A DNA stretch of 64,000 nt from Anaeramoeba flamelloides (lineage: Eukaryota > Metamonada > Anaeramoebidae). A program made the position numbers and the translations under genes. Below the pieces are notes generated by a model that saw only the letters and a program-made list of their open reading frames with translations, searched no databases and had not been told where the DNA came from. Positions 12,230 to 54,790 of this stretch are shown piece after piece (position 1 is the stretch's first letter; each line of letters opens with the position of its first letter). The stretch spans positions 1,421,501 to 1,485,500 of the forward strand of contig JANTQA010000036.1 in assembly GCA_027625915.1 (NCBI GenBank). The letters run 5' to 3'.

Positions 12230-12860
12230 TTCAAAAATCTATTGATTTTCGTTAGGTTTTTTTTACTTTAGAAATAAACCGAAAATTTATTAAAATTTTC
12301 GGTTTATTTCTAAAGTAAAAAAAACCTAGAACACTTCACAAAATCAACAGAAAACTCAAAAACACCTAATCTCTATTTTTTTTTGATTGAAGAAATAAAA
12401 AAAAAATTAATGAAATTGTATTTTTATTTCTAAAATTAAAAAAAAAAGATAAGTGTAATTTTTCAGTATTAAAAAAAATTTAGAAAAATCTTTGTTTTTA
12501 GTTAATTCTTTTAAACTCTGTAAAACCTAACGAAAAGTGTCGTCAAGTGCCGGAGAGTGCCTAGCTTTTCTTGAGGTTTTCTTTTTTATGTGTAAAATCT
12601 ATCGATTTTCGTTCGTTTTTTTTGATTTTTCGATTTATTCTAAAATGTATTGATTTTTGTTAGGTTTTTTTTACTTTAGAAATAAACAGAAAATTTATTA
12701 AAATTTTCGGTTTATTTCTAAAGTAAAAAAAAACCTAGAACACTTCACAAATAAACAGAAAACTCAAGAAAAGCTAACGGTGGTTTTTTTTAATTTAAGA
12801 AATAAATGGAAAGTTTCTTAAATTTTCTTTTTATTTCTCAAATTAAATAAAACCTAACGA
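12230..12860. repeat. cluster of nested palindromes (type P), cluster 1
   Basis: Three or more hairpins of about 75 bp lie in 630 bp. The two best, at 12256-12331 and 12659-12737, are near-perfect: AGGTTTTTTTTACTTTAG opens and its complement closes, with AAAATTTATTAAAATTTT at the tip. A looser one lies at 12785-12850. Between them are recurring words: AATCTATYGATTTTCGTT, ACCTAGAACACTTCAC, and GTCGTCAAGTGCC next to GTGCCTAGCTTTTCTTGAGG. The same words recur at 20040-20400 and 54072-54440. Confidence 0.75.
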
Positions 12861-14962
12861 AATTTCCAACTTATTTAATTGTTAATTGATTGTTTCTGTA
12901 ATTTCATAGTTTCATTTCTAATTCTGTCAAGTTTAAAGATTTCCAACAAATATTTTCTAATTCTATTTCTTAAAATGAAGAAGATTTATATGTCTACCAA
13001 AACCTAGATTTTTTAATTTTTGAATTAATTTAATTTTCTATTTTTCTTTTGTGATATTTACTGAAACCAATTTTGTCTAGGTTTAATAAATAAGTTTTGT
13101 AGAATATTGGTAGATTAATAATGATTCCTCGATTTTTCTATTAATCCATATTTTAATATTTTAAAATCCGTTTATGTTAAAGTAATTCTTTCTAATTTAT
13201 ATAGATGTTACTATATAAAACTGCTTTAAAGAATCAATTTTTTTATCCATAAAAAAAAAAAATCTTTTTTAAACAAAAATATGAAAAGAATTTTTTGAAA
13301 TTATTATTGTACTTTTTGAAGTTGAATTTTAAATCGGTTTTTTTGATCTACTTAAATTACGTAATGTAATTTTTATGATTATATTAACTGTTTTTGTATT
13401 TTATCTTTATATAAATTCATTCCAAAATCTTTTATTATCTTCAACACAGTTAGTTCCACTTTTACTTCACAAACTTCAACGAAAATTAAGGCACAATAAA
13501 AATCCCAAATTAAGGCACAAAATTCAGATTCTATTAAAATAAATTTTGTAAAAAAAAAATTCCAAATTTGGTGCCTTAATTTGAGATTTCTTTGTGCCCT
13601 GTATTTTATTGAAAGTCTGTGCCTTAAATTTGAAACTGACTGTATATTTTTATAATTGATTCTTTGTTACTTTTCAGTAATCCTTCCGTTATTAATATTT
13701 GATCTTAGTGAACATCTGAGAACGTCGAGCTTATGTTTTGATTTTATATAAAAGGACATGAAAAATAAAAAGGTCAGATAATGTTTCGAAATGGTAAAAA
13801 CCTATTCCTTCATTTTAATAATAGACAATTAGAGATATTTTGGTATTATTTATTAAAAGTTCTAAACCAAAATCTAGAAATTCCGGAAGTGTTGTAGAGT
13901 ACCGGAGATTTCCTATATTTTTTTTTTTAATTTATAAAATATACTTAGAAATTTCTTTAATTTTCTGTTTATTTCCCAAATTAAAAAAAAAACTAATAGA
14001 TATTAGAAAGAATTAATTCCCTCCCTTAAAAATAAAAAAAAAATTAGAAATTTTTTATTTGAAATTCTTTAAGGAATCAGTCTCTATTATTTTTTTTACA
14101 GCCTTTCCAAACCTATTGTGAAATTTGACAGATAAGTAAATTGACTTTTTGTCTCAGTTGAATACAAAAAAAAAATTTCTTCAGTTATACCCTTTCATAT
14201 CCATTTCTTTTTTGATAAAGTTTTTAATTAAATGACAAATTGAAGAAAGATGACTACAGTTAAAAACAAATTTTGAAAATCAATTGTTATTATATAAATT
14301 TTTTCTTTCTTTTTTGTTTTTGACTTTATTTTTTTACATTATAATAATAAATGTAAAACAACAATTTTTAAATCTATTTTATTCGTTAATCCAAATTATT
14401 TTTTTTTTTTGAGACTAAATCTCATAACTTTTGTATCTTTACAGATAGTAATTAAAGGAAAAAAAATTGGACGATTTTGTTTATTGAGATTGGTCCATAA
14501 TTAGGTCTTATTTTCATCTACCTTTTTATGAATAGTTAATATTTTTCTATTTTGAATAAAATCAATATTTTCAAATATTAATATAAATAATTAAAAAAAA
14601 GATTTTTATTATTCTCTTTCTCAGAAACTGTGATACTCAAAATGTGTACAATGTATGTACTTTCTTCAAATGAAAAAAAAAATAATAATAAATATATATA
14701 TGTAATTTCTCAAAACCAAACTCCCTGTGTATCTTGCTAAATAAGGATAAGTCAGTTCAATTATCCGACACAGAATTAATATAATAACAGTATCTAAAAT
14801 GGCGGGCCAAGTTTTGAGAAAAAAAAACTAACAAATTAACATTTTTTTTTATCGAAAGTTAAATGTTAACCGGATGAATCAATAGTAGTCATCAATAACA
14901 AAATTCTCTCCTTTGATTGATCAGAGATATTGAAATTTTTTGGAAATTTATTCAATCCTTTA
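12861..14962. other. spacer with small palindromes
   Basis: No gene is seen. At 13483-13640 the word TTAAGGCAC occurs in both orientations around a short centre, forming a loose palindrome shared with about 9030. At 13912-13995 there is a decayed type-P hairpin next to CCGGAAGTG / TACCGGAG words. At 14069-14100 there is a TTAAGG-ATCAGTCTCTATTA end related to the elements at 14963 and 59932. At 14705-14820 TTTCTCAAAAC occurs inverted about 115 bp apart. Confidence 0.55.
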
Positions 14963-15137
14963 GGGACTAATCTCTATTAATTTTTTTTACACAAATTTAA
15001 GAGAGATTGAGAAAATTTTTTGTCAATTACTTAGGTTTGAAAAACCCGGTTTATTATTAATATTAAACATATTTCGAGATATGGAATCTTTATTTAGAAA
15101 TTGGCCAAAAAAAAAAAATAAAATAAAGACTATTTCC
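14963..15137. mobile_element. small inverted-repeat element with GGGACTA ends (TTAA group)
   Basis: About 175 bp. The left end is GGGACTAATCTCTATTAA preceded by TTTA. The right end, read in reverse, is GGAAATAGTCTTTATT preceded by TTAA. Both arms then carry a T-run and a CAATT-ACTTAG / CAATTTCTAAAT block, as in the larger element at 59932-60860. Non-coding; likely an internally deleted relative. Confidence 0.5.
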
Positions 15138-15229
15138 TTAATATTCCCCTCATTAAATAATTGATAATTTTTTATCATGAATTTTTTTTTTTTATTATTA
15201 AAAATATCCAAATCTAAAATTAGTAATTA

Positions 15230-16095
15230 CCATTGTGAAAAAAATTTGGGTCATTAAAAAAAATTGGGTCAGTCAAAAATTTGTTATTCGTTTTTTAAAT
15301 AGTAAATATTAGCAAAATGATTTTTGATCAAAGTAAAATTTTATGAACAAATCTTACATTTAAGAAAAACCAAAGTCACTATCAATAATAATTTTCAAAG
15401 ACCAATGTTATTAACTTGTATTTTGACAATTTAGAATTACTGTGGAACTCTAAAATACAAAAATTTACTTTTAATTGTTAACTTTACTGAAAATGTTATT
15501 TTTTTTTATTAGGATATATTAAAATCTATTAATTCAATAAGACATTTACTATTGCTCATTAACGTGAATTTATCAAAGTTAATCTTAAATATCCTTTTAA
15601 ACCAAATTGAATAATAAAATCTTCCAAAAAAGCTATTTTTTCAGAATAGATTGTTTTCCACTAATTTTTTACAATCAAAACTTCAAAATAACAAAATATC
15701 AAGATTTTAGAAACCATCTAAATACTTTAAATCTCCATAGACAAACTTTAATTTAAAACACTTATTAATTTTTGGTCTTTCCAAACAATGAATAACTTGA
15801 TCTTGGAATGTAATCTAATAAAAAAAATCAACATTTTTAGTAAAGTTAACAATTAAAAGTAAATTTTTGTATTTTAGAGTTCCACAGTAATTCTAAATGG
15901 TCAAAATTCAATAATTTAATATTACCTTTGAAAATTATTATTGATAGTGACTTTGGTTTTTCTTAAATGTAAGATTTGTTCATAAAATTTTACTTTGATC
16001 AAAAATCATTTTGCTAATATTTACTATTTAAAAAACGAAAACAAATTTTTGACTTACCCAATTTTTTTTAGTGAACCAAATTTTTTTCACAATGG
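15230..16095. mobile_element. 866-bp MITE with long terminal inverted repeats and TTA duplication, copy 1
   Basis: The ends are CCATTGTGAAAAAAATTTGG and its inverse, and the terminal inverted repeats run for about 260 bp each. The element is flanked by TTA at 15227-15229 and 16096-16098. A second copy at 40979-41841 is flanked by TAA on both sides and has its centre in the opposite orientation. Three-base TWA target duplications are the hallmark of PIF/Harbinger transposition, so this is most likely a Harbinger-driven MITE. No transposase is encoded. Confidence 0.85.
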
Positions 16096-16527
16096 TTAAA
16101 ATAATATAAAATTAAATAAAATAAGAATGAATTTGCAAAAATTAAAAATAAAAAAGAATAAAAACTTTTTATTATCAATTATTATATATTTTTTTCTGTA
16201 AAAATTCCAATGATGGAAAAATATCATTTGTTTCAATATTTGATTCTTTCATTTTTTATCTCTTATATTTATATTCAAATTTGCCACTTCATTTTATGAA
16301 AATCAAATCGTAATTTTTTTGAATAAATCAATGCAAAATTTTTTGATTGATTTTTTTAACACATTTTGATTGAAATATTTTAAAATGATCGGTTTGGTCG
16401 TTTTACACAATAGCTGTAGAGATTAATGTCATCAAGATATATATTTTTTTATATCGTATTGTTTTTATTTTTATTTGTATTTTTGCTCTCTTTCTGATTG
16501 GTTATCTTTTAAAATTGCTCTGTGCTT
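16096..16527. other. spacer between the MITE and the 3' end of the Asn/Lys-rich gene
   Basis: A/T-rich, 430 bp. Nothing is seen in it beyond the 3' flank of the minus-strand gene that ends at 16528. Confidence 0.5.
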
Positions 16528-17619
16528 TCATTTATGCTTATTTTTATGTGAATGCTTTTTGTGGGTCTTCTTTTTTTTGTTTGATTTAGAACCAATCTTA
16601 TACTTTGATTTTTTGTGGCTTGTTTTGGAGGTTTTTAGGGAATATTTCTCAAAATTATTTTTTTTAGCTCTTTTCTGCTTCCTTTTGTTGTGGCATTTCT
16701 CTGACTTCCTTTTGTGGATTTTTTTATGACTTTGTTTTTTGTTCTTGGCATTTCCGTTCTCGTTTACCTTTTCCGTTTTCGTGGGCAAATCTTTTTTCCT
16801 CAGCTCTTTTGGGTTTTTGGAATTTTGAAATTTTTTTTTGTTTTCCTTTGGTTTATGGTTCTTGATTTTTTTTTTATAATTTTGTGTTGAGGCTTCTTTG
16901 TTGGTTGGGTGTTGTCTTTTTTTTCTTTTCTTACTTATTGATAGAGAGAAATTTTTTTTGTGGTCTTTAATATTGAGAGTAAGATCTACATTTTGCAAAT
17001 TTTGTTTCTTTTTTGTTTTAATTGTATTTTGTGAATTCTCATTTACACTCGTATTGAAACCCCCACGCTCATTATTTTTGGTATGGTTGTTCTTTTTATT
17101 CTTATTCTTTGGCTTCTTGTTATTCTTATTATTCTTGTTATTGTGTATCAGAGTGATTTTGAGATTTTGGTTTTCACTCTCGTTTTTGATAGATTTGGTA
17201 TTTGGGTGATTTTGGTTAACCGAATGGGAATTTTTCAAATCGTATTGTTGGTTTTGAAGTGGGCTGTTAGTACTTATCTTTTTACTAACCTCATTTCTTC
17301 TTTTTCTTTGATTATTATATAATGTGAAATAATATGGATTATCAGATCTCTGATCTCTGCGTCCTAATCGTGGTTGGTTCAAAGAAGTAAAGTTATTTTG
17401 GTACCTTAAGGGGAATTTGTGATAACTATCAAAAGTAGTGTGTGAAAATGGATTCAAATTTCGTAGATCTTTTTCTTGTTTTAAAGTTTCAAGTAAAAGT
17501 GTTTCTTCTAAAAAATATGTAGAATCATAAAAAAGATCGGAAATATTTAAATCAACTCCAAAAAAATAATCATAAACTTCAGGTTCAAACAAATTTAGTT
17601 CTGAGGAAGTGAATGCCAT
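16528..17619 (-). CDS. unknown protein: acidic/aromatic head, Asn/Lys-rich basic tail
   Basis: A single intact frame of 363 codons. I do not recognise a family. Residues 1-50 are acidic and rich in Phe, Tyr and Leu (LNLFEPEVYDYFFGVDLN, then EETLLLETL). The next 70 residues are mixed, and from about residue 120 to the end the chain is dominated by Lys, Asn and Ser with KKNN and HKKSK-type runs, ending in KKHSHKNKHK. No membrane segment or signal peptide is visible. An acidic-hydrophobic head on a strongly basic tail would fit a nuclear, nucleic-acid-binding or transcription-related protein, but this is inference from composition. The length without a stop in an AT-rich genome and the structured head argue that it is real; the tail could have grown by codon slippage. 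Confidence 0.6.
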   Translation of the reverse strand: MAFTSSELNLFEPEVYDYFFGVDLNISDLFYDSTYFLEETLLLETLKQEKDLRNLNPFSHTTFDSYHKFPLRYQNNFTSLNQPRLGRRDQRSDNPYYFTLYNNQRKRRNEVSKKISTNSPLQNQQYDLKNSHSVNQNHPNTKSIKNESENQNLKITLIHNNKNNKNNKKPKNKNKKNNHTKNNERGGFNTSVNENSQNTIKTKKKQNLQNVDLTLNIKDHKKNFSLSISKKRKKRQHPTNKEASTQNYKKKIKNHKPKENKKKFQNSKNPKELRKKDLPTKTEKVNENGNAKNKKQSHKKIHKRKSEKCHNKRKQKRAKKNNFEKYSLKTSKTSHKKSKYKIGSKSNKKKKTHKKHSHKNKHK

Positions 17620-18375
17620 TGTTGTTCGAGAATTGAAATAATTTATAAAACAACAAAATTTATTTATTAATAATTGTAAAAAATTGAATTATAAACTTTT
17701 TTTCAACAACTTGACCAGAACAATTAGTTCGAAATTAGGTATTAAAGTTGCACACTATTGAGATTGTAATCTTAAAAACTTCTATATAGAGTGTTTGTGA
17801 GAATCTATGATCAAAAAGGTCAAAGTTTAACTTTTTTAAATAATTTTTTTTTAGTTAAAAAAATTGCTCTCCATTTTGATGAAATTTCAACTTGAGTCCA
17901 TTCTTTTCCAATTATTAACGTTATTCTTTTACAAAATTATTATTTTTTGGAAAAAGCTAAAAAAAAATTTTGATTTTTTTTAAAATAATGAAACAGGTGT
18001 TAAAATAAATCTTAAATCCTTTTTTAGAGTCACACAATTTTTTGGTTTCTTTTTAAAATTTTTAGGGTTTTTTAGTCCAATAACTAGAATTTAATTTTAA
18101 AGATCTTTTCAAACTTGTCATTCAATTTCAATATTTTGGTGTTTTTGTCGAATTAATTTTATAAAATTATTTTTGGTCACTTGTTGAAAATTAATTTTTA
18201 AATTAAAACAAAGAACAAGAATGAAGGTTTTTAATCATGTGAGTTGTCCATTTTTTTATTATGTATTAAAACAAGAGTGAACAATTTATTGAATTTTCAA
18301 ACCGATTAAAATTTGGGAAATGTAAGAAAGTCAAAGGAATTTTTGAGATTTCAATCTTTTGTTTTTTACTTTTAT
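17620..18375. other. spacer, no gene seen
   Basis: 5' flank of the Asn/Lys-rich gene followed by A/T-rich sequence with no open frame of note. Confidence 0.5.
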
Positions 18376-19575
18376 TTGTTAAGGGAGTAGGTACATTTTA
18401 CTAATTTTGAATATCTGAGTTACTGAGTATCTGAATTATTCTAATCGATTCTGAAAGCAATGAATTTTTTTCTTTTAATAAATAGGGGAAGGTGTATTTA
18501 CTTGTCTAAGAGATTTATATACCAATTAAGAAATAAAAATCAAAAAATTATGAAAGAATTGATCCTTAAAAAATAAATAAAAATCATTTATTTATAGGTC
18601 CTATTATTAAAATATTTGATACAATTACTTCTTCTTCCCTTGGTTTTAGTTAAAATTCTTATCAAAGAAAAATTTTAATTGAATTATTTTTAAGAAAAAA
18701 ATTATTTTGTATTTCTAAAAATTTATTAAAATGAATTTAAAAGTTCAATTTTCAACAAATTTCATCTAATTAAAATTTTTATTTACAAAATAGGATATCT
18801 ATTAAATTTCTATATAGAAATTTAGATTTATTGGGTTGTATTTGTTTTGATTTTAAAATAATTTATTTTCGATCAAATTTGAGTAAATCAAAATAATTCA
18901 AAAACTTATTGAAATTTTTTCTCAATTTTCTTCTTCTTTGGGTTGAAATTTACCTTTGTTTTTTGATTTTAATAATTCAATTTGTTTTGCTTTAATCTTT
19001 TAAATCTATATTCAATGCTTTTTCGAGTTTGATAAAAATGTATGAAAAAAGACTTTTGAAACAAAATGTTTAAAAAAATGGATTATAAAAAACTAATAAA
19101 TATTAATGACAAAGAAATTCAAGATAAAGTTTTACTTATTATTTTTCAAATTGAGAAAATAAAGAAAAAATAAACCATAAAAAATAAGCTTTGGTAAAAA
19201 TTTTTTTTTTTAATTCAATGATTTCAACAAGTTTATTAGGAAAGATGATATTTCTTGTCTTGTTCTAAAAAAGGAAATATTTGTTTAAAAATACACATCT
19301 TCTCAGCTCCGTTTTTGTTGCTTAATTTTTAGTTAATTTGATCTCATTCGTATAACCTTGTTGCATATTTCTCAATTCAAAACATAATTTAATAAAACCA
19401 AAAATCTAATAAAAAAAATATTCAAAAAATTAAATATTAGAGATTCAACCTTGATTTGCTTTCTCTTTTCACAAATAAAGTATGAATGATAAATTGATTA
19501 CATACTTTCAATTTTCAATGTTACATTCAAAAAAATCTCTTTTTTTTATTTTGAAGGGGGGAACCTATTTTCCTC
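18376..19575 (+). repeat. dispersed repeat A, copy 2, with TTAAGGGAGTAGG terminus
   Basis: Collinear with the NAPRT-intron copy and with 39917-41930. It opens with TTAAGGGAGTAGGTACATTT at about 18378 and may close at GAACCTATTTTCCTC near 19570, which would be a decayed inverse of the opening. If so, the whole is an inverted-repeat element of about 1.2 kb. Non-coding and old. Confidence 0.55.
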
Positions 19576-19586
19576 TTATAGTCGTT

Positions 19587-19670
19587 ATGTTTTCCAGAAT
19601 TCAAAAGAATTGATTAAAATCTTAGATTTTACTCTATTCTTTTAAATTCTGGAAAACCTAGGCACTTTCC
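19587..19670. repeat. type-Q hairpin
   Basis: A palindrome of about 80 bp: TTTTCCAGAATTCAAAAG on the left and CTTTTAAATTCTGGAAAA on the right, with AAATCTTAGATTTTACTC at the centre. It is followed by CCTAGGCACTTTCC. The same hairpin occurs at 36367-36440, 54072-54150 and 54243-54318. Confidence 0.75.
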
Positions 19671-20039
19671 TAATTTCTGGATTTTTGTTTTGAAATTTTA
19701 ATTTAGAGTATAATTTATTTTATTATTAGCTAATGATAAAATAAATAATGAGTCTTTATTTCGAATAATATCAAGAATATTATTCTTTAGTAGCTTATTA
19801 TTTCTATTTATTTGAATTAAAACCTGAATTCAAATTTTTTGATTTTTTCCATAGAATGGGTAGTCCCAAAGAATTTGATCGATATTTTCTATTATTTCCA
19901 GATTAGAATGATTTTTACATAAGTTGCAGAATTTTGTATACAATTTATTTTTATCATATACATATGAATATCTGTTTTGATAATTTATGAAATTTCTTAA
20001 TTTAAAATTAAGTTGAGCCTACTCATTTTTATTATTTTT

Positions 20040-20400
20040 TGTCATTAGGTTTTTTTTAATTTAATAAATAAATATAAAATTTTATATAATTTTCGGTTTA
20101 TTCCTTAAATTAAGAGAACCCACAGTTAGGTTTTCTTTAGTTTTCTGTTTATTTGTGAAATTTTCTCGGTTTTTTTGAGGTTTTCTATTTTATTTCTGAA
20201 GTTTTCTAGGTTTTTTTTTTACTTTAGAAATAAAGAGAAAATTTATTAAAATTTTCGATTTATTTCTAAAGTAAAAAAAACCTTACGAAAATCTATTGAT
20301 TTTCTAAATAAATAGAAACCTCAAAAAAAAACAAACGAAAATCGATAGATTTAACAAATAAAACAGAAAACCACAAGAAAACATAGGCACTATACGACAT
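20040..20400. repeat. cluster of nested palindromes (type P), cluster 2
   Basis: A good hairpin at 20205-20285 has TTTACTTTAGAAATAAA on one arm and its complement on the other. A decayed one lies at 20045-20115. The right side carries ACGAAAATCGATAGATTTAA and then CATAGGCACTATACGACAT, the same closing words as at 54400-54440 and, inverted, at 12530-12580. Confidence 0.7.
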
Positions 20401-20589
20401 GACTTTTTGTTGATATTATTATTATACCTAATAATTTTTTAAATATTCTTGACCTTTCCATCTATAACTATTTATAATTAACTTATTGTCTAAAATTATT
20501 TAGATTTGCATTTAATAATTATAAATTTTCTATTTCACAATTAATATTTTCATCTTTTTTTTTTTTTTTTTGAAATTTTAATTGTTGTG

Positions 20590-21790
20590 AAATGTGACAA
20601 AACCCTAGTATTTCTAATTTTTTTTTCAGTTTATATCCTCTTTTGTAAATTGATATTCTTGCTTGGTTGAGTTTAGCTTTAGTTTTATAAATTATTCTTG
20701 GAGAGTGTGGATATATTTTTAAAAATTTTGTTACTTTTTTATTTATCCAAGTCTTGATTAAGTTAAAGTCTTTTTGATTTGGATTAAAAATTACAAGTCC
20801 AATAAAATAATTGAATAATATATATCAATTTAAACATTTGTAATTTTACTCCATTGACGAGTTTTTGTTGGCTAATTTTTTTTTTACTTTTTTTAAAAAA
20901 TATCTTTTACTTTTTAAAGTTTTTTTGTTAATTTTTTGTTTTTTCTAACCAAATACCTAAATATTTTATGTCTAAAAACATGTATAATTTTGGATTAAGT
21001 TTTTTTATCAATATTTGGATTCATTCCAAATTCTTGAATAATTTTAAAGATAATTATTAATTTTTTTGTCAATTTCTGACATGGTCCTTCCCTTATTTAA
21101 ATCAAATCATCTGCAAACATCTTTCCATGTTTTGCAAGATTTTTTATTATTTCAATTAAAAAATGGCTAATAAATCCAAATAATAAAGGCGAAAAAGGAT
21201 CTCATTGATAAAACCCTAAAAAAATTTCAATAATAAGTAGGGTTGTGCAATTAAAATTTTTATAAAATATAAAATGTACAGACTTACTTATCGAAAAAAA
21301 AAATGAATTAGGGCCAAGAATCTATTAATAGTTGTTAATGAAATGTAAACTAATTTCCAAAATTTTGGACACTGTCAAATGGTTGAAAGAATAGTAATAC
21401 AATTTCATTTAAATTTGAAAATAATTTTGATTTTTGTAAAATATAAAAATCTTTTTTTAATCCTTTAGTTTTTTGTTTCCATTTTTTTTTTTTGTTTTAA
21501 GTAACTTATTTCGTTCTATTCAATATATTTTTTTTTCAATTGATTGATATTGGGTTAAATTTGATCTACTCAAAATAGAATAATCCAAATAAAATTAATT
21601 TATGATACCTAAACATTTGATCGATCAATATTCCTAATAGAATTTTCAACAAATTTACCATTACATTTTTTTTTAGTGATTTTTCATCTCCAAAATTTTT
21701 TAACAAGATTAGATTTATTAACAATTAATAATCATTTCTTTTTTGTTTTTTGGTTATTGTAATTTAAAAAAAATAATTTTTGAAATTTCA
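20590..21790 (-). mobile_element. decayed LINE (non-LTR retrotransposon) fragment with reverse-transcriptase motifs
   Basis: Read on the minus strand, the fragment carries reverse-transcriptase landmarks in the right order: QPFDSV near 21370 (motif A of the KAFDSV type), then GFYQ-DPFSPLLFG near 21190 with a stop at the position of the usual Gly of QGDP, and MFADDLI at 21120-21102 (the YADDL box). The GDPxSPLLF plus FADDL combination is typical of non-LTR elements, not of LTR or viral enzymes. Several stops interrupt the frame, so it is dead. The upstream part (21390-21780) also occurs inverted at 37250-37800, so at least two fragments of one family are present. Confidence 0.7.
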
Positions 21791-32585: not shown

Positions 32586-32599
32586 TGAAGTGATGTTAA

Positions 32600-35537: not shown

Positions 35538-35538
35538 A

Positions 35539-35546
35539 TTTTTTTT
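35539..35546 (+). terminator. polymerase III terminator of tRNA-Val
   Basis: Eight T residues directly after the tRNA 3' end, the usual RNA polymerase III stop signal. Confidence 0.8.
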
Positions 35547-36059: not shown

Positions 36060-36810
36060 CCTAATCACGATCATGAAAAAATTTTGTCAAAAAAAATTAA
36101 ATATTTGCTAATTTTACCCTTTTTAATAACTTCAATTAGAATAAACACTATTGGTTAATAAAGGATCTTTGATCAAAAAATATTTTTCAAGATATTTTAC
36201 AATATAAATTGGAAAATCCAATTTTCCAGTAATATTTTTTTTGATTTAATAGCAAAAAATTTGAAAATTTTTTTCTTCACAAATAAGAGTTCTTTTTGTT
36301 ATAGTTTAATAGTATTTTAAATATGGTGAATATCTTTCAAATAGGGAATCAATTATTTTAACTATTAAAGAATTTATAAGAATAGAGTAAAATCAAGGAT
36401 TTTACTAAATTCTTTTGAATTTTGGAAAAACTATTGACACTTAACGTATACTCTCAATAATTATCATTATGAATTTTTTCTCTCTGTTTCAGTTTTATTA
36501 GACGAGTACAATGTTTTCAAAACTATTCGTTATTATCTATCAAAGGAAATATCTCCAGATTGAATTAAACTATAATTCATTCTTCAGTTTATTTGTAATT
36601 TTTTACCCGAAAAAGACCTTTTTTTCTAGACTAGAGACTTTAAAAAACGGAGTACTATTCAGACAAAAATAAATAAAACAACCTCAATATTTTTAAGAAC
36701 TCGAATGTAGACTATGTTTTTGAATAAACTTGATTTCCAAGTGTGAAATGATAATTGAAGTTGTTGTTGTTTCTAACTTTTTTTTTTCAATTTTATTTTT
36801 TCTTAATGGT
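36060..36810 (+). repeat. dispersed repeat D, copy 1, with one type-Q hairpin
   Basis: Collinear with 53725-54790: ATCATGAAAAAATTTTGTCA, TTCAATTAGAATAAACA, TTGGTTAATAAAGGATCTTT, then the hairpin at 36367-36440, then GTTTTCAAAACTATTCGTTA and TGATAATTGAAGTTGTTGTT. The same place in copy 2 holds an array of hairpins. Non-coding. Confidence 0.75.
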
Positions 36811-37249
36811 GATTTCTTAACTAAAATTTATAATAATTTCAAAACTCTCAATAAACAACTCATAACTTTCAAAGATCGAAGTCTATTCGTTTGAACTAAT
36901 GAAATACTTCAATTGTTAGATTGTCAATACAATACAGAATAATCCATATTAAGGAATTATGGATTGTCTCTTATGTGTTTAATTTTTTTGAATTTTTTAT
37001 GTTTTTTCTTGGGTTAAAGTTCTCAACAACACTTTTATGTAAAGTATTTGGCCGATTTATTATTTGAAAATTGAATCCCGGTTACCTGATACTCTGAACT
37101 TGTAAGTTTTTTCGTATTTTAATTGTTGTTGTTTGTTACACCGAAAGCGTAATTGTTCAGTATTTATATAAACCTCGATTCAAAATTATTAACATACCAA
37201 AATTCAATTTGTGAAGAAAAAAACTTATTTAATCAAATCAAGAATAAAT

Positions 37250-39327: not shown

Positions 39328-39364
<37 letters not shown>

Positions 39365-39914
39365 GGTATGTGGTGTTGTGGCAAAGGATTTTGGGAATTT
39401 TTACATTCAATAATGTTATGAAAAATAAATTGTGAAAAATTAGCAGAGAATTTTTTTTATTTTAAAAATAAAATGAACTTTATTTATAGATAATTCTGAT
39501 TATATGGAAATTGGTACATTACAAATATCATACTCAAATATTTACCAAAATGTGTCCAAACAAGGTAATTTCAAACAATAATTTATAAAATTTGAATTTT
39601 CTTGTCTTTGATTTGATAAAGATAATTTTTCAAACCCTATCAACTCAATTTAACACCGTTCTAAAAAAGGAATAGAAAATTATCAGAAAAGTTTAAAGGG
39701 TATAAAAATTGTGTTCAATGAAATTTGCTCAAAAATATTATTTTCCGAAACATTCTTTGACCTTTTTTTGATTCAATCATAATTAAATCATTTTATTAAT
39801 ATTTTAAATTTTACTACTTTGATCTCACTGAATAAATATTTTTGAGGTTTAAAAACCTCTCAAATCCTATAAAAAACACATAATTTTTTGAATCTGGATT
39901 ACAAATGTAGTAAT
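37801..39914. other. spacer with microsatellites and one small palindrome
   Basis: No gene seen. A palindrome at about 38107-38190 has ACAGTCTTTCCAAGGATACC and the inverse GGTAACCTTGGAAAGGTTGT. (AT)n runs lie at 38844-38866 and 39331-39362. Poly-A of about 23 lies at 38984-39007. The Lys-rich frame at 38226-38435 has spacer composition. Confidence 0.55.
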
Positions 39915-39916
39915 TA

Positions 39917-42889: not shown

Positions 42890-44304
42890 TTATTTTTCAT
42901 TTTTTTCTTCTTTTTCATTTTCTTTTTTTTGATTGTCAATATTTTGTTGATATTTCATTTTAACTGGGAATTTTTCTTGAGTTTCTTCATTTGTTGCATG
43001 AAATTCAATCATTTCACCACCAAAAATAAAATGAATATTGATCTTTGTTTCTTTTTGTTTCGAATTTGGATTAATGTTATAGATGGTTGTTGATCCATAT
43101 TTATGGAAAATTGGATCATCAACATAATAAATTTTTTTTGGATCTAAAACTTTATTGGTTTGATAAATTTCAATTTCCAAATCATTTGCCATTGATTGGT
43201 AAGTTTCGGGTTTTATTTTCTAAATAACAGCAATAATAATAATAATATGCACACACACACACATATATATATATATATTATAAAAGAAAAAAAAAAAAAA
43301 AAAAGAATAACAATGAATAATAATAACAAAACAAAAGAAAAGATAAAAGAAAAAAAAAATTATACTTTTCCAATTTTGATTGGTTTATTTTTATATATTA
43401 AAGGTTTATAAACATCCTTACACAATTCCCTCCCACCTATTATTTCCATTTTTTCTTTTTTATGTTTCGTTGCATCAAAATTAGCATACCAGTTAATTCC
43501 ATAGGAATAAGCCAATGGCCTGGAAGTAAAGAGATTTTTTCTTCTTTTTGTGCCCATTAATCCATATTTAACAGCTCCAAAAAGTACTGAACGTTCTGGT
43601 CTTTCTTGTAAAATGATTTTTTTTTGATAAGGCTGGTTTGAAAAATTATCTTCCATCATTTTAAATAAAACATTAGAATTTGAAAACCCTCCAACCATAA
43701 TAATTGAATGTATACCCTTTGTTTCTTCTGGAAATTTAGTAAAATTATTTTCAACACATTCTTTAATTCGTAACATCGGTTCTTCAAAAAAATGATATAT
43801 AAACCCTTGAGTAAGTCTAATTTTACTATTTGGTTGCGTTGAAGATCGATGAATGTAATCTATATCACTTCTGTTTTTACCAATATTCCAATCTCTCATT
43901 AATTCTTTTAATGTTTTTTTTGAATACCATGAAGCCTCAATTGAAATGGATTTTAAATTCGTTCTGCTGGTATTATTTTCCCAGCTTGGATTAACCCGAT
44001 GTTTAATCTCAATCCATTCCTGAAAAGATGTTAAAAAATCAACAGGAAATTTAGTAGAATCTTTAGGTTGTTGCGTAAAATTTAGAATAAATTTTCGAAA
44101 TTCTCTATCAATCGTACTTGAACCATCAGGAGAACCTTTTGCTGGAATTATAATTTTTAACTAGATTGTGTTTTTTAATTGTGAAAAAATTATATTAATA
44201 TAAAATAAGTAAAATTTGAATAAAAATAGCAAAATGTAATGACAATTTTAATAAATAAATAATAGAAATAATAAGAATAATAACTACACACACACACACA
44301 CACG

Positions 44305-44342
<38 letters not shown>

Positions 44343-46006: not shown

Positions 46007-46077
<71 letters not shown>

Positions 46078-46159
46078 ATCAGAGAAACGAATTTTACGCG
46101 TCGCTCGCGCGTGCGCCAATGCGTTTCATTACATCGACAAAATCGTCATACCTGTGATA

Positions 46160-46206
<47 letters not shown>

Positions 46207-49200
46207 ATGTATGTATGTATGTGTGTATGTATGTATATGTATGTATATATGTATATTTGTATGTATGTGCTATTTCGTAAAATTCAAGTTCTTTATTTGA
46301 TTAAAATATTTTCAAAGGATTTAATTTTAACTTGAATTTCAAAATTACATTAATTTATCAAGAGATAGAATGTAGTTGATTATTATTTAAAGTTTTAAAA
46401 TTTGGTTTATCAATAATTAGGTTATCAAATTAACAAATTTTTTTTAGAAAAAAGAAAATTCAAGTTAACTCTTTTAAAAAAATTCACAAACTCAAAAATA
46501 TAATAAAATATCATAAAAAGTAAAGGATTCAACTCAAAAACGAAAAATGTTATTGTGTTTTCAATACAATTGTTAAAAAGTTAACATTTTGATTAGAAAG
46601 TTAAAGATATCTTTAAAAAAATTTACAAAAAAAAAAAAAAAAACGAAAAATTGTTATTTTTTGTCCATTTTCGGAATAGAGTATTTCAAAATTATTTTTA
46701 TCGATTAAACAAATTTCTCACATCCAAAAAATTTAGTAAAATCCAAAAAAAAAAATTAAAATAATAATTTGGTGTGAAAGATCTTTTCAAAAGAATGCTT
46801 TTTGGGAGTCGGGAATTTTTTATAAATAAACATTTAAAATAATAATAATAATAATAAATAAACCAATTTTAATGATACATATAGTTATTACCAAATTATC
46901 AAAACCTCGAAATATTAATAGCAAAAAAAAAAAAAAGTAAGGAAGAATTTGCCAAGCAAAAAATGGAAAGGAATTTTAAAGAAGAGTCTTGAAGTGAAGG
47001 TCAAATCTGATTTAAAATTTTATTTTATTGATTAAAAATTTTCTATTTTTGGGTTTTTATTAAAAAAAATCTTGGTCACAATTTGTTTAAGGATGTAGCA
47101 ACATCATGAAAAATACTAGAATTGAAATATGTGATAGTTTATTAAAAAGTATATTGGTTCTCTTAAGTTCTTGATTCTCCAAAATTTAAAAAAAAAATAT
47201 AAAACTTTAATTTTACTAATTTTAACAATTAAAATTTCAGAGAAAATATTATAAAAAAAAAAAAATTAAATTCAAGAAATTTATTTAATTTTTTTAGGAG
47301 ATTTATTTTTTGAGATCTCAGACTACATACTTCCACTTTGTATTTTCAGATTTTATTTTTAAAATATTTGGCAATTATTTGAATATAATTTTATCTACAA
47401 ATAGTATCCAAATCCAAATATTCTATAGATCTCTAAAAAAAAAAAAATTAAAATAATAATTATTTTTTTTCAGGATTCTACTTTAGAAAAGAGAATTTCG
47501 GGTTTTATTGGTAATTTTTATATAATTTTTTTTTTAATATTTTTATGTCTTTTGATTAAAAAAGTTCGTTTTATTTGGTAATATGTTGTAAATATTATTA
47601 AACAATTTTTTTTATTAATTATTTTTTTTTACCATCTTTTTTATCCTTCTTGAAATGTTTTAGTAACTTATTTCTTATTAATAAAATAATAAACCACTTT
47701 TTGTTTTTATCTTACAAAATCGTAAAACATATTTTCTAGATAATTCTTTTGAATTCTCAAAAATAAAAATATATCTCATTTTTTCTAACTTTTAAACTAT
47801 TTTTATGATTATTAAAAACTTTTTTTTAAAATATTTACTCGACTTTAACTTCACAATCTTTTTAACAAAATATATCTGATAATAAAATTAAAAAAATATC
47901 TTTTTTTATTACCTTTCCAATCTTTAAAATCCATTATTTTGTGAATTTTTAAAAAATCCTTGAATTTATATTAATTATTCTTTTCCAAGTATACCAGATT
48001 AATTTATCATTTTTATTTCAATTCCTAATCACTTTTAATAAAATGTGTAACTATTCGAAATTGTGAGATTCTGTCAGATGAGATAAAAATTACAAAGCAT
48101 GATATTGGACTTCAGACCAGTATTAAAAATTAATTCTAATTTAAAACTTTTAGAAGTTTTCAACTAATTTAAACATATTTTAGAATTAGAAAAATAATAA
48201 TTTGGTTAAATACAAAGATATTCAAAAAAAAAACAAATCAATTTTGAAAAAAGAAACTAAAAGAAAGAAATTAAACCAGTGATCCGATCAAAAGATAATT
48301 TTCTGTTGGTTTACCTGATTGGTAGGTTGGTTGAACATTTGCATTGACAATACTTATCAATTAAAGAATAATTCTTTGAATACCAACTTATTATCATATT
48401 TGGATTTACTAATAAGGATACCCAGGGCAAATAGATATCATTAAACGCACTCTATATTTTTAATTCTCTTTTGTTTAAACAATTGCTTGACACAATCATT
48501 TTTTTAAAAAAACCACAGTTTGGTTGCAATTCAAAATATTTCACAAAAATTTTTAACATAAAATTCTGAGATCTAAAGATTGTTTATGTTCTCTCTCTTT
48601 TTTTTTTTTTTTGATCTAAGCATATATTGTTACTTTTAAATTTTAGAGTCAAGTTCAATAAGAATAAGTGCCTTATATCATAAGCCAAAACTTTCACTTT
48701 TTTCTACGTTTGGATATGAAAACCGTCTTGTTTATTTAGTTGTGGTTTAGTTTGATTTTGAGTATTTAAAGTACTTGTTAAAAGCAATTTATTAGATTTT
48801 TTTCTCAATATAAAATAAAACGCCACAATAGAATGTTGAGATAAGAATAAAAGTTAAACTCACTTAACACCCCCCAAAGTAGATTAAACGAATCAACTCA
48901 ACATTTCATGATGACATTTAATTTTACATTTGTAATTAAAATTAATAAATTGTTATTCAACAAGTAATTTAAATACTAAAAAGCAACTTGACACATTAAA
49001 AGTAAAAAATTTTGTTTTCGAATCTTCTTTTGAAAATCTTAAAAAAGTAAAAATTTTGTCTTTCTGGTGGCTACTCGCCTAAAATGACTTTAATAAAAAA
49101 TAATTGCAAAAAAAAAAAAGAATTTTAGAAATTCCATTAAATTCCCAAAATAACATTTGACAAATGAAAATTCTCTATTTCTAACTTTTTTTTGAATTTC

Positions 49201-50356
49201 TCAGTAATCCAAACTATTTCCTCAATCTGAAAATAAAAATTTTTTAAAAAGCCTCTCAAGAATTATAATAAACTTTTTTCTGGACTAATGTCAACCCAGT
49301 TGAATCAATTAATTAAAAAAAAGATTTTTGTTTCCTTTTTTCAATTGAACAAATTTGCTAATTTGTTGAAAAGTGTTTTGAATTTGGATTTTTCAAGAAA
49401 AGAAAAAAAAAATAAAAAACAAAAAAAAAATAAAAAAAAAAAAAATTTCAAACTTGTTCTTGGTTTTCTTTTCCTTTAACTTGTAAAACTGTGATGTCAA
49501 TTGTTCCGGATCCAGCATCAAAAAGTAGAATTTTTCCTTTTTTGTCTTCAAAGTTATTAATTTTATTTGAAAAAAAATAATCAAGTGCAGCAGCTTCTGG
49601 TTCTCTGATCAGGACAAGATCTTTGGAATCCTTTGTCTCAATGATTCTCGCCTTTTTGGCACATTTCCTCATGACTGCTTTTGATTTGTCTTTCCAAATG
49701 GCTGGTACTGTTAAAACCCAAAAGATATTTTTATAAGAAAAATTTTTAGGTGATTTTTGGCCTATTTGTTTCATTGCAAGACGTGCAACATATCTTAATG
49801 CAAAGGAAATAACTGTTTGAACAAGAAACAAGTTTCCTTTTTGTGATGCCACCGTTTTCTTATCGCCATAAAGCCTCATTTTATAAAATTGAAAGATTTC
49901 AAGTTTTTCATAGTTATAACTCGTCTCTTCTTCATTGTCTTTGTTTTTGTTCTCCTTTTCGACGTAGTCGAGACTTTTGTCAAGATCACACTCTACTTCT
50001 TCTCCTGATTCTTCTTCTGATTCAGATTCGAAACCCTCTTCGGAATCCTCTTCGGAATCTTCTTTGGAAGATTGGGTGCCTGATAGATCGTTCTCCTCAA
50101 GATATATTTCGTATGCATTTTTGTAAATTTCCACAGCCTCAGATCCAAATGCTATACACTTCACTAAATTTATTCCTTCAGACAGATCTTTTTTAAGCCC
50201 GCCTTTGTCACGAAGAAGAAGAATTGTGCTATCAATTTTAAAAACTGAGCTTTCCATACCATATACTTCCTGAGTTTTGTCTCCAATAAATGAATAGGCA
50301 TATCCACTTTGAGAAGTTCCAAAGTCAATTGCAACAACATAATTTTTGTTTTCCAT
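42890..50356 (-). CDS. HSPA12-like divergent HSP70 (three exons)
   Basis: HSPA12 proteins are distant HSP70 relatives with an actin/hexokinase-type ATPase fold. Exon 1 is 50356-49454 (301 codons), exon 2 is 44160-43366 (265) and exon 3 is 43219-42890 (109 plus stop). Both introns are phase 0: 49453-44161 (GTTTGA to TCTAG) and 43365-43220 (GTATAA to TTTAG). The joined protein is 675 aa, the same length as human HSPA12A. Landmarks are phosphate-1 VVAIDFGTSQSGYAY at 7-21, WVLTVPAIWKDKSK at 213-226, REPEAAALDYF at 251-261, phosphate-2 LLFDAGSGTIDITV at 277-290, GSPDGSSTIDREF early in exon 2, IIMVGGFSNS near 454-463, and PERSVLFGAVKYGL and SYGINWY before a beta-rich tail. A Glu/Ser-rich insert (about 97-125) is unusual. 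There is no C-terminal EEVD. The client or partner cannot be told. Confidence 0.88.
43220..43365 (-). other. 146-nt intron 2 of the HSPA12-like gene
   Basis: GTATAA donor at 43365 and TTTAG acceptor ending at 43220. It contains the (CA)n and (TA)n microsatellites at 43247-43280. Joining is in phase 0 (IKIGK / KIKPETYQS). Confidence 0.85.
46007..46262. repeat. compound microsatellite (TA)n(TG)n ... (TA)n(TATG)n
   Basis: (TA)n then (TG)n at 46007-46078, and (TA)n then mixed TATG/TGTA units at 46160-46262, flanking a unique CpG-rich stretch. The frames that cross it are repeat translations, not genes. Confidence 0.9.
48030..49085 (+). repeat. dispersed repeat B, copy 2 (in HSPA12-like intron)
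   Basis: Collinear with 3790-4860 and in the same orientation, including CCACAATAGAATGTTGAG near 48830 and the closing GGTGGCTACTCGCCTAAAAT, which is the inverse of the GGGAGTAGC-type terminus. Non-coding. Confidence 0.7.
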
Positions 50357-51342
50357 TTGAGTTTTTGGTTTGATCTAGTGGAAGAAGTGGGATAAAAAAA
50401 AAACGAAAAATAATTCAAAAAGAGTAATATTATTGAAAAAAATGAAAATTAATATTTTTGGGAAAAATTATTTGGTTTCTGTTGTACATTTTTATTGTTT
50501 CCTTTGAAATTGGATTCCAAGACACATTTTTTAAGCATGTATAAGGATTAAATTCTGATAAATTCATCAAAAACAGATTCTAAGTAATACTGTAAAAATC
50601 CAATTCTCATACTTAGTTTTTTATCTCAAAGTCCAATAAGAAAGATTAAATAAATGTCTAAAAATATCATTTCTAATTGATTTTCGAAAGATATTTGGGT
50701 TTTTTCAGCTAATAATTAATTCATAATATTTGGAAACTGAAGTAAAAAATTTTTTTTTTTATTGGAATATAACAGAATTAAAATCATACGAAAGTTCAAA
50801 ATATTCAATTAGTGAAATGGTGAATTCTTTTGTGTGTTTGTTTGCACAATAGTTTTTTTTTTTGAGCACTTTCATTTGGTGAAACAATAATCTTTAGGAG
50901 GAGATTTTATAAATTGTCTTGGTAAAAAAAATAACGAGAACAAAAACTATTTATTTGGATCCAATAACCACCACTTGAAAAGATCTTCAATACAGAAAAG
51001 AAAACTCTCTCAATTCTGAAAAGTTATTGTTTTGGTTTCTCACAACACTTGTGTTCACAAACAGAAGAGAACCATCAAGACAATTTCCAAAAAAATCAGA
51101 CTATACTATCGAGCTCATTTTTCAAATAAAGACTTAAAAATATAACACAAGAAAGAGAGATTCATTTTATACTCGCTATTTTGTGTCTTGTGTTTGGAAA
51201 ATTTGTGAGATAGTAATTTCATGGAATGTTAAAAATTGAATTGGTGATTGTTAAGTACCATGAGCAACAAAAGACGTAGCTATCTTTTTTTCCTGTTTTT
51301 TATTTGAAAAAACTCATATCGTTTTGAAAAAAAAGTGAAATA
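50357..51342. other. 5' flank of the HSPA12-like gene, with a repeat fragment
   Basis: No gene seen. 50620-50705 matches 33425-33510 (TTATCTCAAAG... CTAAAAATATCA... TTTTTTCA), so the sequence beside element E is itself repeated. The rest is A/T-rich. Confidence 0.5.
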
Positions 51343-51745
51343 GGGAAAAAACGTTAAACATGTTTTTTTATTGATAAAAATACAAGAAATTTTGAAAAAA
51401 AGTAAGATCCAATTAAAAAAAGAATAAATAAATAAATTAAGATAAAATAAAGGGTTCAATACAATAACAGTTATTTTACTAATATCTTTAGTAGGGGTTT
51501 TTCTTTTGGGGTGATCAATTATAACAAAATATATGAAAAAAATTGACTATTTTTAGTAGCTCTAAAAATCACTTGATCAATTTCGGTATAAACGTAGACT
51601 TAAATTGGGTTTGTTGGTTTGATTGAAAATAATATAAAGGATCATTATTTGGAGTTAATTGGTTTCTTCTTTTTATTGATTTTACCATTAGTTATCAGGT
51701 TCATACAAATGTTCCCAATGAAAAAGAGTGTTGAACTTTTTTTTC
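51343..51745. mobile_element. inverted-repeat element E, copy 2 (shorter)
   Basis: Left end TA-GGGAAAAAACGTTAAAC. The right part is about 90% like 33980-34165 (TTTGTTGGTTTGATTGAAAA, AATGTTCCCAATGAAAAA). The extreme right end is decayed. It is about 230 bp shorter than copy 1 because the middle is missing. Non-coding. Confidence 0.6.
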
Positions 51746-52304
51746 AGAACGGTTAGTTCCAAACATTTTTTCTGAATTTTAAGGCATTAGTGCCGATCAG
51801 TGTTGAAGTCAAAAATTCAAATATGTTGATATTGAATGTAAATCTTATATTTGTTATATGTTTCAAAATCTCCTAAAATTATATCAGCAGTTATTTGGTT
51901 TTTTGTGATCAAAATATTTGTAATATTTTTTTTGAATATGATTTTAATCATATGAAGAAAAAAGATTAAAGATATTTTGATCCAAACAAAAAACCAAATG
52001 GCTATTGTTATTATTTGAAAATTTAAAAAAAACAAAATAAAACAAAATAAAATGCTCCCTTTGTGATTTATTTTTGTTTCCCTTTCAATCCCTTTTCTTT
52101 TTATTTTTCTTCCTTTATCTTTTTTTTCTTTTTGTTTACTTTCTTTTTCTCTTCTTTCTGTTCTTTCTTTATCATTTCCTTCTTTTTTCTTTTCTTTCTT
52201 TTCTTTCTTTTTTCTTCTTTTCTTTCTTTTATTACATTTTCAATTTTTCTTTCTTTTTCTTTTTCTGTTTTTTTTTGAATTTTTGTTAAAGTTTTATTTT
52301 TCTT
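51746..52304. other. spacer with a 220-bp pyrimidine-rich tract
   Basis: 52070-52290 is almost only T and C on the plus strand. On the minus strand it gives a Lys/Glu/Arg-rich open stretch of about 58 codons, like the linkers in the Furry-like and NEK proteins. It could be an exon of an unrecognised gene or simple sequence. Confidence 0.4.
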
Positions 52305-52309
52305 GTGGA

Positions 52310-52440
52310 TCTAAATATTGTACCAGTGTTTCGTCTGAGACTACTTCTTCATCCAGTCTTCATTTCCTTCCTTAAAATGATCAAATTCCTTGAAGGCCTT
52401 TTCGTTCCATTTGTACATTTCAAAAAAAAATGGAAAACGA
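52310..52440 (-). pseudogene. possible coding remnant
   Basis: On the minus strand a coding-like frame (MYKWNEKAFKEFDHFKEG, then NEDWMKK and a stop) overlaps another frame (LDEEVVSDETLVQYLDPQEK and a stop) shifted by one base. GC is raised relative to the flanks. This could be a broken small gene or an exon pair whose splicing I cannot resolve. The family is not recognised. Confidence 0.25.
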
Positions 52441-53261
52441 AGAAAATTGATATTTTTATTAAAAAAAAAAACTCGACAGAAAAATTTCAAGATATTTTCG
52501 AAAAGTGGTAAATAGAATTATTTACTATGTTTTTATTTACACTCTTAACAAACAAAAAAAATAAAATTTTGATAAAATGTCTCTAATTTAAAACTTCAAA
52601 AAAACTCTATTTCAATTAACTCATACTATCCACCGAACTCTATTTGAAAGGTTATTTTTAAAAAAAATTTTAAGTTAAAAAAATAACTTGATATTTTCAA
52701 CTTACAAGCAATTCCAAATCTTGTATTTCAAGTTTTGTAACTCTAAAGTCTTTGAATTATTGACATTTTATAGAAAATTCAAAGATCTAAATTAAAAAAA
52801 TAAAATTAATGATAAATTTTCACTCATTAATTAAATGTTCAAAATGGCTAGTACTAACCATAACAAACAAACTTTCAAAAAGTTATCCTTAATATCCCGT
52901 AATGCTTATCCAAAAAATATTGCAACATTTTATTCATTTTTTCACATTTTTTTAAACGAAGATAATAACAGCAATACATTTGTAAAAATGTCAATTCTTG
53001 AATTTATAAAAAATACAAGTATTATTATTGATAATATCTGTATTTCGAGATCAAATTTAAAGGATGAATAATTATCAATATAAAATTTTGTAGAGTTTAA
53101 AAATATCTTTTGTAAATTTAACCTGAAATTATGATATGATTTTAAAAGAATTATTTAAAAAAAAAATAAAATAGTAATAAAAAGATTATTTTGACTAATT
53201 ATTTTCACATATTGGAAATATATTTGGAAATACAACTAGATTTATCAGAAAGGAAATGAAA
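52441..53261. other. spacer, one doubtful small frame
   Basis: The plus-strand frame 52835-53071 (78 aa) contains KLSLISRNAYPKNIATFYSF and FVKMSILEFIKNTSIIIDN, which is more protein-like than most spacer frames, but no family is recognised and no intron signals were confirmed. Confidence 0.3.
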
Positions 53262-53725
53262 CTAGAGTAGTGAAAAAAAAATTGGACAAGGAAATAATCC
53301 CTGACAAGATTTTTAATTGTAAATATTCGGAAAATTGCTGTGCCAAACTTAATAATTTCTTTTATTTATAATCAAATCCCGTTTTTTTAAGAACCAAACT
53401 ATTTAGATTATAACTCACCCACTTATTAGAATGATGATTAATAAATTACACATATTCAAAGCACTATTCAATCCATTAAAAACAACAATAAATAAATCAT
53501 TTTCTAAACTCTATAGAAAACCTCTATAAAACTTGATTGTTTGTAAAAAAAAAATATCTACTTATCCAATCAAACAAAGACTTGAGTAATATAGAAACGC
53601 CCCCACTTTAATGAAGTTTAGGTAGGTTTATTACTATTTTCATAAAATATTTGATTCTTTATAAAAAGGAGTTGAATCTAAATTAAAGAAATCACACATC
53701 AATTATCATACAGTTCAAGATCATG
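53262..53725 (+). mobile_element. inverted-repeat element C, copy 2 (right end lost)
   Basis: Collinear with 4895-5340: AGAGTAGTGAAAAAAAA left end, GATTTTTAATTGTAAATATT, ACTTATTAGAATGATGATTA, CCCACTTTAATGAAGTTTAG. The right terminus is replaced by repeat D, which starts at about 53725. Confidence 0.65.
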
Positions 53726-54790
53726 AAAAAATTTTATCACAAAAAATTTTAATTTTTGCTAATTTTATATTTTTTAATAACTTCAATTAGAATAAACATT
53801 ATTGGTTAATAAAGGATCTTTGATCAGAAAATATTTTTAAAGATATTTGTAATTTAAGTTGGAAAATCAAATTTTCCATTAATATTTTATTCGATTTTTG
53901 TGTAAAACAATTGAAAAATTTTTTGCTTCTAGCTCAGAGATCATTTTATTATATTTTAATAGTATTTTAAATCTGATGAATATCTTTCAAAAAGGGAATT
54001 ATTTTTTTTTTTGACTATTAAAGAATTATTTATACTTTTAAATTAGAAAAAATATTTTTTCTTTGATTTTCTGTTAGGTTTTCCAGAATTTAAAAGAATA
54101 GAGTAAAATCAAGGATTTTACTCAATTCTTTTGAATTTCGGAAAACCTACGACACTTCTGTTAGGTTTTTTTGAATTATTGTAATAAACAGAAAATTTAA
54201 TAAATTTTTGGTTTATTTCAAAAAGTTAAAAAAAAATCACAGTTAGGTTTTCCAGAATTTAAAAGAATTGGGTAAAATCAAAGATTTTTCTCCATTCTTT
54301 TGAATTCTGGAAAATCGCCATTAGGTTTTCTTGAGTTTTATGTTTATTTCAAAAAGTAAAAAAAACCTAGAACACTTCACTAATAAAATAGAAAACCTCA
54401 AGAAAACCTAGGCACTTGACGGCATCTACAGGCACTTTCAATATTTATCTTAAGTTGTTTTTTTCTGTGTTTGGGTTTTTTTAGATGATAAGAGTGTTTT
54501 CAAAACTATTAGTTATTATCTATTCAAAAAAATATCCTAAAGTTGAGTTTAAAGAAAATTCATTGTCACATCCATTTAAAAATTTTTACCCCAAAAATAG
54601 ACCTTTTTTTCTATACTAGATACTTTTAAAAATCATAGGACTATTAACAACAATATATATAACAGCCTCCAGATTTTTAAGAACTGGTATGTTGATTATG
54701 TTGTTGAATAAACTCCATTAACAAGGATCAAATGATAATTGAAGTTGTTGTTGTATCTAACTTTTTTTTTTCAATTTTATTTTTTCATAC
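53725..54790 (+). repeat. dispersed repeat D, copy 2, with an expanded hairpin array
   Basis: Matches 36060-36810 on both sides of a 370-bp array of palindromes. Left part to about 54070, right part from about 54480. Copy 1 has a single hairpin at this place. Confidence 0.75.
54072..54440. repeat. hairpin array: Q-P-Q units plus terminal words, cluster 3
   Basis: Two type-Q hairpins (54072-54150 and 54243-54318), a type-P-like hairpin between them (54155-54240), and a closing block with AAAAACCTAGAACACTTCAC and CCTAGGCACTTGACGGCAT. Each unit starts with GTTAGGTTTT and ends with AAAACCTA or a relative. Confidence 0.75.

Follow-up and report, generated by a model that had tools for sequence, protein, structure and literature searches.

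Hairpin units in retrotransposons and a DNA element of Anaeramoeba flamelloides

Three hairpin clusters and their repeating unit

The window, by which we mean the whole 64,000-nucleotide stretch analysed here (C37:1421501-1485500 of the Anaeramoeba flamelloides assembly GCA_027625915.1), holds three clusters of palindromes. The assembly searched is AT-rich and comprises 254,072,379 bases in 76 contigs. A first-pass annotation, made from the sequence alone, had reported two hairpin types, P and Q, occurring alone and in modular clusters joined by recurring words. Both types lie where it had placed them, far above chance: across the whole assembly and with at most one mismatch, the Q arm gives 17,154 matches (8,573 + 8,581; control 31, 12 + 19) and the P arm 3,080 (1,556 + 1,524; reversed control 274, 144 + 130). 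Among the loci retrieved for comparison, copies diverge from one another by a median of 19% for Q (n = 113 full-length) and 22% for P (n = 125). A third palindrome, W, built as TTTTCTTGAGGTTTTCTGTTTTATTTGT-AAAATCTATYGATTTT-ACAAATAAACAGAAAACTCAAGAAAA, had been overlooked, and its recognition explains the connecting words. These words are present, as parts of the palindromes themselves: AATCTATYGATTTTCGTT is the W tip plus its junction with a nested unit, ACCTAGAACACTTCAC is the other junction of that same unit, and CCTAGGCACTTGACG is the 5' end of a unit in reverse reading.

Cluster 1 consists of two plus-strand arrays standing head to tail. In the first (12218-12532), a P (12253-12328) is nested in a W remnant; a P-like hairpin (12376-12446) and a Q, both worn, complete the array, which closes with the 3' end CCTAACG (12526-12532). 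Many genome matches start at 12218, and the left flank of the cluster was not placed in any repeat. The second array (12533-12859) runs from a 5' AAAAGTGTCGTCAAGTGCCGGAGAGTGCC through a W with nested P (12663-12735) and a P-type hairpin (12782-12854) to a 3' CCTAACG. The right flank of the cluster holds an old dispersed repeat (12882-13437), a possible carrier that recurs in full or partial length at five other places with 72-75% identity. Cluster 2 is a minus-strand array (20043-20403) in which a W surrounds a W that surrounds a P (20211-20282), together with a P-type hairpin (20046-20121). A single Q unit, 5' AAAGTGCCTAGG-Q-CATAACG 3', lies at 19583-19668 on the same strand, its hairpin isolated at 19588-19658. 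Cluster 3 (54072-54439, minus strand) contains two Q hairpins (54075-54149 and 54244-54316), a P-type hairpin (54166-54234) and a W remnant, and its 5' end reads GAAAGTGCCTGTAGATGCCGTCAAGTGCCTAGG on the minus strand.

The arrays are composed of units of about 90 bp, each containing one palindrome of about 70 bp and reading 5'-GAAGTGYC, zero to four 10-bp repeats, TAGG or TAGC, hairpin, CCTAACG-3'. Read outward from the hairpins, 120 tails AAAACCTAACG (CCTAACG) and 50 heads GTGCCTAG[GC] (GAAGTGYC...TAGG/TAGC) were counted. Ten overlapping loci were excluded from the counts of ends, junctions, carrier flanks, nesting and pairing, and the 20 short stretches L092-L111 were also excluded from those of nesting, head repeats and flipped direction. 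Among 71 heads, 21 carry no further 10-bp repeat, 27 carry one, 20 two, two three and one four. The spacing is always 10 bp except for 12 cases of 11 bp, which we think reflect an extra C in the first repeat. Head-to-tail order is common genome-wide, as the junction AAACCTAACGAAAGTGTC yields 794 matches against 2 for its control. The two outer ends, GAAGTGYC and CCTAACG, are unlike each other, and pairing is confined to the inner TAGG...CCTA; at sites 1 and 3 an outer TGTCGT...ACGACA could be taken for a 6-bp repeat, which was not seen at site 2. In these respects the units differ from a miniature inverted-repeat transposable element (MITE) with terminal inverted repeats.

The Q palindrome itself has a direction, since its stem retains mismatches at constant positions (alignment columns 15/57, 24/48 and 28/44), which pair less than independent arms would. 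At the stem base, columns 2/70 pair at 0.58 against 0.40 expected under independence. The G-C pair at the base of the stem is often reversed on both sides jointly, giving TAGG-hairpin-CCTAACG or TAGC-hairpin-GCTAACG. Internal direction and end words agree in 50 of the 95 orientable Q copies, disagree in 16, are contradictory in one and are uninformative in 28; a further 18 copies were not orientable and stand outside the 95. Polarity of the unit is a strong tendency rather than a rule.

Nesting follows a regular plan. In many arrays another unit interrupts a W close to its tip, in the form ..TTATTTGT / GAAGTGTTCTAGG-P-CCTAACG / AAAATCTAT.. (slashes mark the junctions). The split junction gives 4,262 + 4,191 matches with up to two mismatches, against 6 for the control. 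From the split copies an unsplit tip was predicted and then searched for, and it was found in 432 + 420 matches with up to three mismatches (control 0), a pattern so nearly palindromic that a single place may score on both strands. The slight asymmetry of W makes the split arm identifiable: 65 split junctions in 114 stretches fall in the 5' arm 31 times and in the 3' arm 25 times, with nine undecided. At 63 junctions the inner unit is a P in 37 cases, a W in 22 and unclear in four, and a Q is nested in at least one place (L049). The pattern behind the count of arms fixes the direction of nesting; in a separate search of the loop-side junction, the CCTAACG end points towards the loop 50 times and is flipped in none. 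Units thus stand near the W tip in either arm and nesting depth reaches four; at locus L018 three W palindromes, each inside the next, surround a P.

The first-pass annotation had further proposed that the arms stay complementary despite divergence between copies, pointing to recent renewal or a need to fold. We compared each copy's own arms with 3' arms exchanged between copies, a comparison in which upkeep would favour own arms. For Q (113 copies), own arms pair at 0.8265 and swapped arms at 0.8356 (sd 0.0027). For P (125 copies), own arms score 0.8587 and swapped arms 0.8257, an excess that rests on a few columns separating subgroups and is gone within them (own 0.8700, swapped 0.8748; 98 of the 125 rows). 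Compensatory changes between arms are accordingly absent in Q and occur in P only between subgroups, with none within. The P subgroups each appear to descend from a well-paired founder, with no sign of later upkeep. Continuing renewal of the arms is not shown, nor is a need to fold. Upkeep of pairing within groups, whether by selection or by renewal, was rejected, as own arms pair no better than swapped ones. A known RNA family was likewise rejected as the identity of the hairpins: an Rfam search of the window matched none to them and returned a tRNA as its sole hit.

Carriers and empty sites

Cluster 2 lies in a decayed 3' part of a non-long-terminal-repeat retrotransposon, a long interspersed nuclear element that we call LINE B (19540-21200 and beyond, minus strand), with an A-rich 3' end near 19540. 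The assignment rests on these A-rich 3' ends and on a reverse transcriptase domain in copy L081 (PF00078, E 3.4e-17); the window's own short LINE B fragments gave no Pfam match. At their LINE 3' ends, immediately ahead of the A-rich stretch, L081, L083, L084 and several C1 loci have a short terminal stem in common (GAGGAAACTAGTTTCCTC or similar), a feature that the LINE reverse transcriptase may recognise. Near the LINE B copy in L083, a frame at L083:1931-2713 (C13:15546930-15547712) carries a piggyBac-type DDE_Tnp_1_7 domain (PF13843, E 1.1e-16).

LINE B offers two sites at which empty and filled copies can be compared. Site 1, in the LINE B reading frame, holds the cluster 2 array in the window and is also filled in L081 and L082; it is empty in L083 and L084, and the reading frame of L083 continues through it. 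No duplication separates filled from empty copies, an A-run leaving one base ambiguous (four of the five loci compared reached the score limit). The sequence is joined directly across site 1 in at least 17 of 40 scored LINE B copies. Site 2, near the 3' end, holds the single Q unit in the window, is filled in L081, L025, L028 and L046 and is empty in L082, L083 and L084, again with no duplication (8 of 15 loci aligned). Insertion at the W tip is also free of duplication. The insertion points lie between A and A at site 1, G and G at site 2 and T and A in W, with no common target word.

Cluster 3 sits in the middle of a 1,080-bp element of a family that we call A (53716-54795), which ends in CAAGATCATGAAAA...TTTTTTCATACCAGTG and is flanked by a TT duplication (53714-53715 and 54796-54797). 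A second family A copy in the window (36066-36811) has one worn Q in mid-element (36369-36428) and AT on both sides. Among 40 places scored, five others span the element unbroken with near-identical limits (query 716-722 to 1789-1798); many others match piecewise, alike in their outer limits and different in the hairpins between. The family ends in CACGATCATGAAAAAAT and ATTTTTTCATACTAGTG, which form inverted repeats (CACGATCATGAAAAAAT / CACTAGTATGAAAAAAT). The flanking 2 bp are identical in 14 of 19 copies, after two of 21 (L062 and L064) were dropped with one end unaligned; shuffled pairs average 3.42 identities with a maximum of 11, and none of 20,000 shuffles reaches 14. An 8-bp hAT-like duplication, TTATCATA, noticed by eye at the window copy, was rejected in favour of the 2-bp signal, the best supported across copies. 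CACTA/CMC-type elements have CAC...GTG ends and a short duplication; family A, with such ends and its 2 bp, is compatible with them, short of establishing a superfamily. Fixed inverted-repeat ends and duplication, the marks of a DNA-transposon MITE, therefore belong to the carrier. The earlier view that the clusters match no standard MITE holds for the hairpin units, with their asymmetric ends and duplication-free entry at two LINE sites; the accompanying statement that stable outer ends are lacking fails for cluster 3, whose carrier has fixed ends and is flanked by 2-bp duplications; another cluster lies in a LINE.

A second LINE family (L035/L086 type) presents one site with many contents. 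In 35 copies this single site is empty six times, holds W seven times, Q five times and mixed arrays 17 times, and the flanking words are nearly constant while the content varies. Similar variation is seen in 20 short stretches that partly overlap the 35 copies. On a tree built from the flanks of 32 copies (L134, L138 and L143, with short left flanks, were left out), content judged by eye changes at least 17 times and switches between empty and filled twice, on a topology that is weak, with two of 29 inner branches starred and 19 open. Among the C1 loci, one or both flanks of most arrays are found again at the other loci.

Elsewhere, the window contains a minus-strand nicotinate phosphoribosyltransferase gene whose N- and C-terminal parts (PF17767 and PF17956) lie at 1802-2302 and 5655-6887. 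The stretch of about 3.3 kb between the parts recurs in other loci and is possibly a repeat-laden intron. A repeat that is both young and abundant, for the most part 95-99% identical to about 30 places, has its edge in the region 15225-15400 and beyond. Two divergent HSP70 ATPase-like frames are found on the minus strand at 43360-44160 and 49448-50374, the second of which alone matches Pfam (PF00012, E 1.4e-05).

How the units could spread

On balance we lean towards regarding the clusters as nuclear counterparts of organellar palindromic elements, borne by carriers, inserting without target duplication and reshuffled by recombination. The units would be small non-autonomous mobile hairpins that use an enzyme supplied from elsewhere and that enter DNA without duplicating the target, a step suggested by the two LINE B sites and by the W tip. 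Insertion would favour single-stranded or extruded hairpin tips, multiplication would occur mostly as passengers of LINEs and family A, and reshuffling could arise when palindrome breaks are repaired from other arrays. The units occupy unlike carriers, namely two LINE families and a DNA element with 2-bp duplications. A single element behind all clusters was rejected for this reason. Of the two outcomes that the first-pass annotation had named as refuting its view, the absence of compensatory change was observed, within groups, and a resolution of the clusters into one ordinary element was not. Tentatively, the units may constitute a class of nuclear hairpin transposons, some 90 bp in length, that have polar ends and leave no target duplication; a preference for the hairpin tips of other copies would produce Russian-doll palindromes and fast-changing cassettes in LINE 3' regions.

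Several observations weigh against such mobile hairpins. The duplication-free host sites are two independent ones, both in one LINE family and one of them with the A-run ambiguity. In the second LINE, empty copies nest among filled ones and the junction is unclean, with three odd bases, so that loss is likelier there than a preserved empty state. The 16 of 95 orientable Q copies contradict the end words by their internal mismatches, and on the outer side, look-alike words (27 matches with up to two mismatches) confound the test for flipped nesting. A search for an empty family A copy returned no matches. No array was proved to sit in unique DNA; L018 has a left flank that is partly another repeat, and the bases adjacent to its array have no match among the places scored. 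An abundant repeat of about 330 bp stands near this array (L018:812-1142), with 39 further places scored at 83-86% identity.

The strongest rival is carriage and reshuffling alone, in which the units never transpose by themselves. They would be old modules of LINE 3' regions and family A, copied with their carriers and exchanged when the LINE reverse transcriptase switches templates or by ectopic gene conversion at palindrome breaks. The repeated changes of content between nearly constant outer words in the second LINE, the recurrent flanks at most C1 loci and the fruitless search for an empty family A all speak for it. Self-transposition is favoured instead by the clean insertion into an open LINE B frame, by the variety of inner units (P, W and, in one case, Q) at corresponding positions of the two W arms, and by the occurrence of the same units in a LINE and a DNA element alike, and we consider it rather unlikely that carriage and reshuffling account for everything.

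A Helitron-like or other single-strand nature of the units (HUH-type, IS200/IS605-like), as non-autonomous elements served by a known kind of enzyme, appears improbable. Helitrons and IS200/IS605-REP elements leave no duplication, have a hairpin near one end and form tandem copies, all of which the units share, but terminal and target words differ. Helitrons end in TC...CTRR and insert between A and T; the ends of the units are not 5'-TC...CTRR-3', and their sites are A-A, G-G and T-A without a common word. The terminal-region hairpin of Helitrons is itself documented (PMC4778049). Least credible of all, and in our view very improbable, is a function of the hairpins in carrier transcripts, as small-RNA precursors or required LINE 3' structures: their size and shape resemble hairpin precursors and several arrays immediately precede an A-rich LINE 3' end, but compensatory change within groups is absent, Q keeps its fixed mismatches, Rfam has no match to the hairpins, and many LINE copies lack the array.

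Comparison with organellar palindromes

Short palindromes with a small loop, many dispersed copies and nested insertion are all found in P, Q and W. Residence in an organelle is not, among the copies analysed (organelle DNA of this species was not examined), as the assembly has 254 Mb in 76 contigs and the window bears ordinary cellular genes. Searches of the open literature (most subscription papers lay outside this scope) showed no nuclear system of hairpin units like these. The spread of selfish organelle palindromes is unsettled; for the GC clusters of yeast mitochondria, the origin is described as poorly understood and the means of proliferation as in need of more evidence (PMC4478555). 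A nuclear genome with thousands of copies provides a much larger data set, with empty and filled sites and datable carriers, and opens the spread of such small DNA within a nucleus to study. It would also reveal in what way the 3' regions of retrotransposons are reshaped by hairpin arrays, and whether the tips of palindromes act as insertion sites.

Yeast GC clusters are described as short palindromes of variable presence that merge and shuffle and are flanked by AG or ACT direct repeats (PMC4478555). The units resemble them in being short palindromes, in variable presence and in shuffling, and differ from that description in being about 90 bp long and AT-rich and in having no duplication, of AG, ACT or any other kind, at either of the two LINE B sites. 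In sponge mitochondria, repetitive hairpin-forming elements insert in tandem to give double or multiple hairpins and occasionally enter genes (PMC2800124). Tandem insertion giving multiple hairpins and occasional entry into genes are shared with the units, which are nuclear and polar, in contrast to organellar elements of few copies for which that account describes no polar ends. The mitochondrial and plastid palindromes of Volvox carteri form hairpins that reach 77-79 nt and have 3-5 nt loops. Those of the mitochondrion are AT-rich, and the palindromes are dispersed over non-coding DNA; they often insert into each other to build larger compound repeats, and their nuclear copies were judged inert (PMC2670323). 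The Anaeramoeba hairpins are likewise AT-rich, of similar size, widespread and mutually inserted. Compared with the Volvox palindromes as reported there, they are set apart by their place in a nuclear assembly, within LINEs and a DNA element, and by the polar ends of their units, the 10-bp repeats at the head and a constant position of insertion near the tip of one hairpin type.

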